This document shows positions 14,071 to 37,357 of a DNA stretch of 56,777 bases, piece by piece. The notes beneath the pieces are model-generated. The model ran no database searches and was not told the origin of the DNA. It saw only the letters and a list, made by a program, of their open reading frames with translations. The stretch's first letter is position 1. The number at the start of each line of letters is the position of its first letter. Origin of the DNA: Luteimonas padinae (GTDB taxonomy: Bacteria > Pseudomonadota > Gammaproteobacteria > Xanthomonadales > Xanthomonadaceae); NCBI RefSeq assembly GCF_014652935.1, contig NZ_BMZT01000013.1, positions 1-56,777 on the forward strand. Reading direction: 5' to 3'. Both the position numbers and the translations under genes were made by a program.

Positions 14071-14165
14071 CCGCAAAGGATAAGGACCTCCGGCCCGTAA
14101 AGCAGCGCGCGACAGCGCGTCGGGCTCGCCCCCACCGCCGAAGCCGGAGCACGTCACGTCGCCGA

Positions 14166-14275
14166 AGCGCGCCGCTGCGCAGGGGGCATGGGCAGCGCAC
14201 AAGGATGTGCGCGGAAGGCGAATCAGCCACGGACGGCTGCTTCGCCGGTCCATGCCCCCTGCGCAGCGGCGCGCT
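14166..14275. repeat. Perfect 26-bp inverted repeat enclosing two hairpins (hrpB-tatD gap)
   Basis: The arm at 14166-14191 is an exact reverse complement of 14250-14275 (left arm starts AGCGCGCCGCTGCGCAGG). The 58-nt interior folds into two further hairpins. One is GCGCAC/GTGCGC (14195-14212, loop AAGGAT). The other is GGCGAA/TTCGCC stacked on CAGCC/GGCTG (14217-14246). Together they make a T-shaped three-way junction. It lies between the divergent hrpB and tatD starts and fills most of their 268-bp gap. Confidence 0.8.
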
Positions 14276-14338
14276 CCCTCCCGAAGCCGAACGCCTCCAC
14301 CGGCAGCCCACCAACAGGCACCCACCTACAATGCCCGC

Positions 14339-32860: not shown

Positions 32861-33934
32861 ATGCGTCTGAATCGTCTGGAGCTGCGCAACCTGCGGAATC
32901 TGGCGGAGGTCGTGCTGGAGCCCGGCGCCGGGTTGAACCTCCTGGTCGGGCGCAACGGAGCCGGGAAAACCAGCGTGCTCGAAGGCCTGCACCTGCTGGC
33001 CTATGGACGCAGCTTCCGCGGACGCGTCCGCGACGGACTGCTGCGGACCGGCAGCAGCGCAGTCGAAGTGTTCGCCCAATGGCACACCGAGGCCGGTGAC
33101 CGCAGCCATCGCGCGGGCCTGAGGCATGGCGGCGGCAGCTGGGAGGCCAGGATCGACGGTGGGACGGTTGGCCATCTCGGCGAACTCTGCGCGGCCTTCA
33201 TGGTGGTGACCTTCGAGCCGGGCAGCCACGCGCTGGTGTCCGGGGGCGGCGAGCCCCGGCGCAGGTTCGTCGACTGGGGGCTGTTCCACGTGGAACAGGG
33301 ATTTCTTCCGATCTGGCGCCGCTATTCGCGAGCGCTGAAGCAGCGAAATGCGCTGCTGAAGTCGGGGGCGGGGATCGGACAGATCGCGGCCTGGGATCAT
33401 GAGCTGGCAACGTCCGGAGAGGAACTGACCCGTCGTCGGGCCCTGTATCTGGACCGGCTGCAGGACCGGCTGGAGCCCGTTGCCGCGGCACTCGCGCCCT
33501 CGCTCGGGCAGGCCATGCTGGAGTTCGAACCCGGCTGGCGCCAGTCCAGCCTGTCGCTGGCGGATGCGTTGGCGGTTGCGCGGGACCGGGACCGGATGCT
33601 GGGCCATACCAGCGTGGGACCGCATCGCGCCGACTGGCGGTTGCGGCTGTCCGGCAAGGGCGAGGGCGAGACCCTGTCGCGCGGGCAGGCCAAGCTGGCG
33701 GCGCTCTCCTGCCTGTTCGCGCAGGCGACGGACTGCGCCGCCGAGCGTGGCGACTGGCCGGTGATCGCGCTGGACGACCTGGCGTCGGAGCTGGATGCGG
33801 AGCATCGGGGGCGAGTGCTGGCGTTCCTGGGAAACGTGCCGGCCCAGGCGTTCATTACAGGCACCGATCCGCTTCCGCTGGATGACGGCAGCAGGGTGTT
33901 TCACGTGGAACAGGGTCTGGTGACCCCGGGCTAG
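32861..33934 (+). CDS. recF: DNA replication and repair protein RecF
   Basis: SMC-like ATPase that helps load RecA at gaps. 357 residues: Walker A GRNGAGKTS (34-42) after MRLNRLELRNLRNL, the YGRSFRG segment, signature-like TLSRGQAKLAAL and Walker B VIALDDLASELD. Two parS-like sites lie inside the coding sequence, and one of them is a perfect 16-bp palindrome. Confidence 0.97.
   Translation: MRLNRLELRNLRNLAEVVLEPGAGLNLLVGRNGAGKTSVLEGLHLLAYGRSFRGRVRDGLLRTGSSAVEVFAQWHTEAGDRSHRAGLRHGGGSWEARIDGGTVGHLGELCAAFMVVTFEPGSHALVSGGGEPRRRFVDWGLFHVEQGFLPIWRRYSRALKQRNALLKSGAGIGQIAAWDHELATSGEELTRRRALYLDRLQDRLEPVAAALAPSLGQAMLEFEPGWRQSSLSLADALAVARDRDRMLGHTSVGPHRADWRLRLSGKGEGETLSRGQAKLAALSCLFAQATDCAAERGDWPVIALDDLASELDAEHRGRVLAFLGNVPAQAFITGTDPLPLDDGSRVFHVEQGLVTPG
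33282..33297. promoter_or_regulatory. parS-like site 2 (perfect, inside recF)
   Basis: TGTTCCACGTGGAACA, a perfect 16-bp palindrome matching the parS consensus, encoded within recF. Confidence 0.8.
33897..33912. promoter_or_regulatory. parS-like site 3 (3' end of recF)
   Basis: TGTTTCACGTGGAACA, a parS-type site with one asymmetric position, in the last codons of recF. Confidence 0.75.
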
Positions 33935-34043
33935 GTGGGCCGGTGGTTGCGGTTGCGAGCGCGGTCGTCGGTGTTCGATGCCCGGTATGCAGTGGTCAGC
34001 TACCGGCATCAGCGCTCATTTTTGGTTCTTCTCCCGACCGAGG

Positions 34044-34057
34044 AAAAAGGCGCGTGG
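34044..34057 (-). promoter_or_regulatory. Alternative 3' partner helix and U-tract after RNA copy 1
   Basis: On the minus strand CCACGCGCC followed by TTTTT comes just after copy 1. It is a perfect 9-bp complement of GGCGCGTGG (34166-34158), the 5' strand of the copy-1 outer stem. This allows a mutually exclusive terminator-like helix, though it would enclose about 100 nt. Confidence 0.3.
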
Positions 34058-34068
34058 GAGCATCGCGG

Positions 34069-34172
34069 CGCTTCGACGCATGGCCTGCTGCCGCTCATGT
34101 CCCCCGATGCCGGCCCCACAGGGGCCGGCATCTCCTCCTTGACTTCCCGTCAGCAGGCCACGCGCCAAAGCG
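34069..34172 (-). ncRNA. Candidate structured RNA element, copy 1
   Basis: Read on the minus strand: an outer 15-bp helix (34172-34158 with 34083-34069) in which the only three non-Watson-Crick pairs are G-U. Then CCTGCTG/CAGCAGG, an internal loop ACGGGAAGTCAAGGAGGA, a perfect 12-bp hairpin (GATGCCGGCCCC, loop TGT) and a second loop strand GGGGGACATGAGCGG. Both loops and the CCTGCTG stem are identical to copy 2 at 34311. The outer and terminal helices differ in sequence but still pair. No open frame here looks real. Class unknown. Confidence 0.6.
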
Positions 34173-34310
34173 TGCAAGGTCCCGGCGGGCCGTTGGAAAA
34201 GGCGCGGCGTGGGCCACCTTGCGTGAGCCCCGAGGCGCGTCGACGCTCTGCCCTTCTCCACCGGCTCCGCGACGCTTCCACTATCCCTCGACCGCCGACA
34301 CTGTTCCGGA

Positions 34311-34406
34311 CTGCGGTGCGATGCCTGCTGACGGGAAGTCAAGGAGGAGGCTGTGGCCGCAGGCCGCAGCCGGGGGACATGAGCGGCAGCAGGCATCGCA
34401 CCGCAG
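34311..34406 (+). ncRNA. Candidate structured RNA element, copy 2
   Basis: Plus strand. A perfect 20-bp basal helix (CTGCGGTGCGATGCCTGCTG with its complement at 34387-34406) opens into an internal loop of ACGGGAAGTCAAGGAGGA on the 5' side and GGGGGACATGAGCGG on the 3' side. The loop is capped by a 10-bp hairpin (34349-34371, loop GCA) with one U-G pair. The loop sequences and the CCTGCTG/CAGCAGG pair are identical to copy 1, while both variable helices have different sequences that keep pairing. The two copies point away from each other, 138 nt apart. Confidence 0.6.
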
Positions 34407-34546
34407 CACGACCCCCCTCCCGCCGGCCGCGTCTGGGATCAGCGCAGGGCGCGATCCCTCACTTGCGACATGAACCTCATTTTCAGCCTCGTCTTCGGCA
34501 GACCTCAGCCCTCAACAGCCAAGCCCAAGCCGCCGCCAACCACCGA

Positions 34547-34595
34547 TTGCCGGGTTGCCAGGTTGCCAGGTTGCCAGGTTGCCAGGTTGCCGGGT
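34547..34595. repeat. 8-bp tandem repeat GGTTGCCA
   Basis: About five head-to-tail units of GGTTGCCA with slightly degenerate end units (GGTTGCCG). It stands just before parS-like site 4 in the recF-gyrB gap. Confidence 0.85.

Positions 34596-34840: not shown

Positions 34841-37357
<2,517 letters not shown>

Follow-up and report, generated by a model that had tools for sequence, protein, structure and literature searches.

What are the two similar, outward-facing hairpins between recF and gyrB of Luteimonas padinae, and do they belong to that site in particular? The preliminary description of the window (the whole stretch analyzed here, 56,777 nt) had reported two copies with sequence blocks in common and had read them as a structured RNA holding a special seat beside oriC and gyrB. 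We examined the fold of the pair, its copies in this and other genomes, the ends of the DNA that carries it, and the variation of its helices and internal loop.

Hairpin Pair Between recF and gyrB

Both the coordinates of the two copies and their common blocks were found again (Table 1). dnaA, dnaN, recF (32861-33934) and gyrB (34904-37357) were recognized among the open reading frames of the window, and the hairpins occupy the recF-gyrB interval. As RNA, copy 1 (left) has an outer helix of 22 bp, made up of 15 bp plus CCTGCTG/CAGCAGG, and a terminal hairpin of 12 bp; copy 2 (right) has an outer helix of 20 bp and a terminal hairpin of 10 bp. The fold z-scores were -9.6 and -8.9, respectively, and none of 200 shuffles reached either value. 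When the opposite strand was folded, three pairs were lost from the outer helix of copy 1 and one from the terminal hairpin of copy 2, in agreement with the earlier statement that the imperfect pairs are G-U on one strand only.

Table 1. Features of the repeated element and its hairpins in the window
Feature	Position	Strand	Remarks and basis
MITE-like element with hairpin pair	34024..34476		453 bp; inverted repeats and comparison of copies
Left target-site duplication TCATTTTT	34016..34023	+	7/8 match to right copy; sequence
Right target-site duplication TCATTTTC	34477..34484	+	sequence
Left terminal inverted repeat GGTTCTTCTCCC...	34024..34045	+	22 bp; 2 mismatches to search pattern
Right terminal inverted repeat	34455..34476	-	22 bp; 3 mismatches to search pattern
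Left structured hairpin	34069..34172	- (RNA sense)	core 34091-34150; fold, exact-core pattern, covariance model 104 bits
Right structured hairpin	34311..34406	+ (RNA sense)	core 34331-34386; fold, exact-core pattern, covariance model 116 bits

A search of the whole window at the Rfam gathering threshold gave no family for the hairpins, the sole match lying elsewhere and being unrelated. At a lax threshold the hairpin interval returned chance matches only, to three plant microRNA and two archaeal RNA models, and none of 19 more hairpin-bearing loci rose above the gathering threshold. Rfam membership was rejected on these results. The unrelated match in the window is a TwoAYGGAY RNA of Rfam at 14159-14282 (+), which scored 46.9 bits where the gathering threshold is 43.

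A Repeated 453-bp Element

The two gyrB-side hairpins belong to a single repeated DNA element, one forming its left part and the other its right. Rather than the two copies described earlier, the genome (3.12 Mb) has 15 exact matches to the core, 7 of them forward and 8 reverse; the reversed pattern, used as a control, gave 0. Copies are of two types, left and right, which lie on opposite strands. A DNA search of the same genome with the interval gave nine matches longer than 300 bp, another two with lengths of 158-173 bp, and some shorter fragments; the exact cores fall inside the 11 blocks longer than 150 bp that resemble the interval, and about a dozen full or partial copies of the element are present. 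Its limits in the window were set from the ends GGTTCTTCTCCC...GGGAGAAGAACC, one or both of which most copies in the genome retain. To the right of the element, at 34547-34594, lies a short tandem array with an 8-bp unit, TTGCCAGG.

Bacterial MITEs are described, in passages of PMC3733652, as non-coding elements with 15-30 bp inverted repeats that can be mobilized by transposases recognizing them, and that can fold and thereby stabilize or destabilize mRNA. The 22-bp repeats of the window element lie within that range. Target-site duplications were seen in the window (7/8), on both sides of the copy on contig C8 (AAAAGAAA, 8/8) and around a copy in the related genome G048 (TTTTTCTT, 8/8); the copy at C1:316691 is flanked by TTTTTCGT/TTTTTTGT, and for several other copies in the own genome the flanks are ambiguous, with no clear duplication.

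A special seat beside oriC is not supported. The recF search matched 50 of 52 genomes of the genus, and we inspected nine of the 29 recF loci retrieved, the window's own aside. The hairpin core was absent from all seven relatives in which recF-to-gyrB could be read, including the closest (G008, recF 90% identical). In another locus (L352) it was absent near recF, though gyrB was not located there. G048 has its own core copy in the recF-gyrB interval (L348), along with dozens elsewhere in its genome. The pair beside gyrB is thus one copy of a dispersed element rather than a fixture of that site.

Likely Mobilization by ISL3-Family Transposases

The 453-bp element is best read as an ISL3-mobilized MITE that would favor the T-tracts of terminators, because ISL3 insertion sequences of sister species have the same ends. 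In G030, a 1309-bp insertion sequence (L376) has CAACTTTT at both sides, an 8-bp AT-rich duplication, and its 401-aa frame scored 334 bits against the NCBIfam ISL3 model (NF033550; cut-off 180). Its left end is GGTTCATCTCCCAAGTCCGGGG and its right end reads GGTTCTTCTCCCAACTGAGGGA; both versions were seen at the ends of G048 copies. ISL3 elements with the window element's ends were found in G030, G027, G025 and G026 (both ends) and in G050 (left end, where the contig stops). An autonomous partner with the same ends is therefore present in sister genomes and not in the own genome, whose two ISL3-type matches lack the ends of the window element. One of these genes (L185, which we take to be ISPpu12-like) was rejected as a transposition partner because it has no GGTTCTTC ends. 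Orphan ends in G048 were followed as a possible autonomous element, and the search led to no such element. The window element thus resembles the ISL3 family in its terminal repeats and differs in lacking a transposase, while L376 gave no match to the hairpin model. Its movement was probably in trans, driven by a transposase of the ISL3 family.

Of 64 element ends, 27 lay flush behind a terminator-like hairpin and 45 adjoined a run of A or T; among 2000 positions drawn at random from the window the corresponding numbers were 15 and 3. The 64 ends include some doubtful matches, which were retained. Across 60 sampled elements of the hairpin family, 48 of them from outside the genus, end-like words were weakly enriched: they pointed outward in 38 of 120 flanks and the wrong way in 15 of 120, and 5 of 60 elements had both ends.

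Membership of a mobile DNA hairpin family had been named in advance as evidence against a functional RNA. In this genus the pair does ride on an ISL3-type MITE, but no description of the hairpin element was found in the open-access literature (preprints excluded).

Hairpin pairs and mobile ends seem to mix, with more than one vehicle in use, because the ends differ in G1062 and because ISL3-type ends in the own genome also hold another hairpin. In G1062, five copies are near-identical over about 350 bp and end, by eye, in ATACCG-CTTGC... / ...GCAAG-CCGTAT, which is not ISL3-type; the hairpin pair lies within these repeats (L412, L442-L445) and the amplification looks recent. The other hairpin is unrelated, with the core GGCCGG-AGTGGGAGCAGGAC and differing left and right arms. 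It forms an outward pair in three own-genome elements (L174 at C10:29014, L182 at C1 ~180 kb and L183 at C3 ~84 kb), is single in L179 (C1:235169), and was found also in sister genomes; L354 and L404 are further loci with it.

Three more observations concern the ISL3 elements themselves. In G030 an ISL3 copy (L400, C1:103551) is apparently inserted within a hairpin core, with GTAAGTAAAGG as left flank. L389 and L404 in G033 are deletion derivatives of about 250 bp that retain the C-terminus of the transposase. G033 has six such short ISL3 matches, which we read as MITEs caught forming.

Distribution, Arrangement and Gene Context

The covariance model found hairpins in 18 of 52 genomes of the genus, the own genome included, with up to 76 in one genome. 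A broader model matched 87 of 395 genomes and 7 of 54 genera in the sample of the window's family; and 29 of 348 genomes in the order sample, every one in the window's family. The class sample gave 4 of 369, three of the window's family and one of family f118. Within f118 itself, matches came from 166 of 399 genomes, spread over 74 of 141 genera. Per-genome counts in the family, order, class and f118 samples are lower bounds, with 10 or 11 candidates scored in each genome. Taken over the two bacterial families, more than 250 of the sampled genomes thus have the core, with paired arms changing to match. Family f118 is probably a Burkholderiales family, because plasmids of Variovorax paradoxus (two matches) and Burkholderia anthina (one match) hold model matches.

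An exact-core scan of IMG/VR gave three rows, one of them a true hairpin, and a plasmid and phage search using one copy from the window's family as query yielded nothing informative. Of 119 chance-like stretches returned by an over-loose contig pattern, 43 served as a negative control, and the model matched none of these. Opposite-strand rows were removed from two hairpin sets: a stricter cut-off reduced A2 from 97 to 82 rows (15 lower-scoring opposite-strand matches of the same loci), and A5 went from 109 to 101 (8 rows).

Outward inverted pairs were the commonest arrangement, at 52 of 93 sampled loci, followed by 34 singles, 4 arrays and 3 inward pairs. The window's family contributed 32 outward pairs, 1 inward pair, 23 singles and 4 arrays (n = 60), and f118 20, 2, 11 and 0 (n = 33). 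By eye, a few singles show a degenerate partner. In f118, 15 of 22 pairs are spaced by 52-60 nt.

By a crude frame finder, 9 of 60 loci in the family and 6 of 33 in f118 lie over a predicted frame. Divergent promoter regions are under-used, because among the other loci, wherever both neighbors were called, convergent, tandem and divergent sites numbered 25, 44 and 7 in total (19:26:6 in the family, 6:18:1 in f118, 2 unresolved). Some f118 copies occupy short gaps between co-directional genes, for example on the B. anthina plasmid, within its meta-cleavage cluster. Single hairpins in the sampled loci of both families took no clear orientation relative to neighboring genes, which makes a reading as an mRNA element awkward. 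The fixed orientation of a riboswitch was not seen, as divergent sites were the rarest and singles lay both ways. An intrinsic terminator was also rejected, since none of 101 hairpins was followed by a U-run (at least four T in the next 8 nt). When full transcripts were folded, the left hairpin was predicted to pair with the right one, instead of each forming by itself, for 5 of 14 elements on either strand, including that of the window; a requirement that the left and right arms avoid pairing was rejected on that count.

Covariation and Strand-Specific Wobble

Helix changes were counted in three sets of distinct hairpins: 72 from the window and its genus (A3), 118 from the family's other genera (A6) and 55 from f118 (A7). 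Cells were paired in 96.9, 92.9 and 91.9% of cases, respectively, vs. 69.7, 63.7 and 59.5% in shuffles. Two-sided changes numbered 656, 1134 and 571 vs. 200, 347 and 147 in shuffles, none of which came as high, and at most 106, 281 and 129 in slid controls; these counts lean towards the model because the alignments were fitted to it, and they are not independent events because the copies are related. On a cruder measure, the number of pairs with any two-sided change, 1, 4 and 0 of 500 shuffles reached the observed value. Copies within a single genome can have largely different arms around the same core, as in G130 and G1361.

In the outer and terminal helices, read on the strand of the purine loop, G-U outnumbered A-C by 116:9, 212:28 and 101:10 (429 to 47 in total), the covariance models themselves slightly favoring G-U. 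Wobble on one strand and compensatory helix change were thus found in all three sets, the latter with the exception of the short middle helix, which is poorly supported (84.7, 62.4 and 79.3% paired, compensation nearly nil). The covarying helices, the nearly invariant purine-rich loop and the strand-specific wobble first noticed on two copies now stand on 72, 118 and 55 hairpins, and the further covarying copies come from two families and are not just repeats of the gyrB locus. The reading as a functional RNA is well supported, and the hairpins likely fold and act as RNA.

A possible rearrangement was seen in two species of genus g51. L298 and L258 seem to be one site, lying after a gene whose protein ends in GPNYQN-, yet they have the hairpin in opposite orientations, by eye as if the core had been inverted between its own arms.

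Internal Loop

The loop GG-N-GG/GG-N'-GG is almost invariant in its eight guanines, with 3 exceptions over 200 hairpins and 2 over 55 (5 non-G in 2040 cells), as against 16 and 18 variants at N and N' (34 in 510 cells). Two of 202 hairpins could not be aligned to the core and were left out, and the sums and the joint count for the 200 were added by hand from the variant list. In that set guanines and middle positions differed with a Fisher p of 3e-9, kinship of copies being ignored. The N-N' pair was A-G in 235 of 255 hairpins, G-A in 12 (one of which, L289, depends on a doubtful core alignment), A-A in 4, C-G in 2, U-A in 1, G-C in 1 and G-G in none; G-A was seen in two genomes of the window's genus and across several f118 genera. 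The joint changes of N and N' speak for a genuine middle pair with facing guanines on both sides.

Such a loop could be a protein-read, ligand-binding or quartet-forming site. A Shine-Dalgarno-like decoy was considered, as AAGGAGG lies exposed and either strand is a rough fit to the anti-SD sequence; the U-A, C-G and G-C middle pairs favor a pair instead. The recognition motif of CsrA contains GGA, and CsrA-like sites were considered as well. Complementarity between the left and right loops was rejected as the cause of the common core, five loci (L415, L427, L430, L432 and L435) having G-A in one hairpin only. It is conceivable but improbable that the core is a pseudo-symmetric four-stranded motif in which the eight guanines stack as G-quartets round the covarying middle pair and hairpins of different transcripts dimerize. 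If this were true, the two families would possess dozens of portable RNA-dimerization sites, spread by MITEs and working in either orientation.

Proposed Explanation and Alternatives

We propose, with a probability of roughly 0.7, that the locus holds a copy of a repeated element of 453 bp, probably mobilized in trans by an ISL3-family transposase, and that the outward hairpins of this element come from a widespread covarying family and likely act as RNA. The transposase would likely place the element in T-tracts behind terminators or in other AT-rich gaps, where it would do little harm. Whichever side a transcript entered from, it would include one hairpin in the functional sense, and because the two hairpins point outward the element would work in either landing orientation. 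The internal loop would then be bound by a protein or another RNA, and binding would most likely alter the decay or processing of a read-through or operon transcript. From the pattern of sequence change we infer that the hairpins may act at the RNA level; a role in crossing transcripts that is independent of orientation would be our best guess, and an effect on those transcripts is guessed.

The main alternative is that the hairpins work as single-stranded DNA, in the manner of REP/BIME/REPIN sequences (including the SMAGs of Stenotrophomonas) with their RAYT transposases: a strand-specific nuclease-type transposase would read the folded strand and so generate pairs, singles and arrays. REPs are portrayed in PMC3733652 as dispersed intergenic palindromes, 20-40 bp long and tagged by GTAG or CGTC, many per genome and plausibly transcribed, and in PMC2817692 as occurring in singles, inverted pairs and arrays. 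The hairpin family is likewise dispersed in these three arrangements, a bias towards one strand is expected from single-stranded DNA too, and the invariant loop would suit a recognition site. Unlike REPs, the hairpins measure about 80-105 nt, have an invariant internal loop in covarying arms and, in this genus, ISL3-type ends. No GTAG or CGTC tag was found at their foot, where the outermost modelled pairs vary and the aligned hairpins were inspected, and the largely different arms within G130 and G1361 are unlike freshly copied units. We regard this alternative as unlikely.

It is more improbable still that the hairpins are structural baggage of an ISL3-derived MITE, shielding it from impinging transcription or terminating that transcription, with a loop conserved because the copies are young. 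The ends held in common with an ISL3 element and the many similar copies in some genomes would fit. However, the same core with largely different arms is found in dozens of genera and in a second family, the G1062 element has it between different ends, the hairpins have no U-run (0/101), and the sampled data already point to conservation of the loop despite randomized arms in copies that predate genera.

NEMIS/Correia, ERIC and YPAL are MITEs of the RNA-folding kind, and to our knowledge none combines a conserved, covarying loop with two outward-facing copies of it. The 453-bp window element is also longer than the 70-300 bp given for bacterial MITEs in passages of PMC3733652.

Under the proposed explanation, the hairpins would form a large structured repeat lacking an Rfam entry, with up to 76 copies per genome and a presence in 74 of the 141 genera sampled from one family. 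They would join two questions that are usually kept separate, namely the reason for folding in small mobile elements and the function of their RNA. The almost invariant eight-guanine loop, with its natural compensated variants, would offer a compact object on which to test both.
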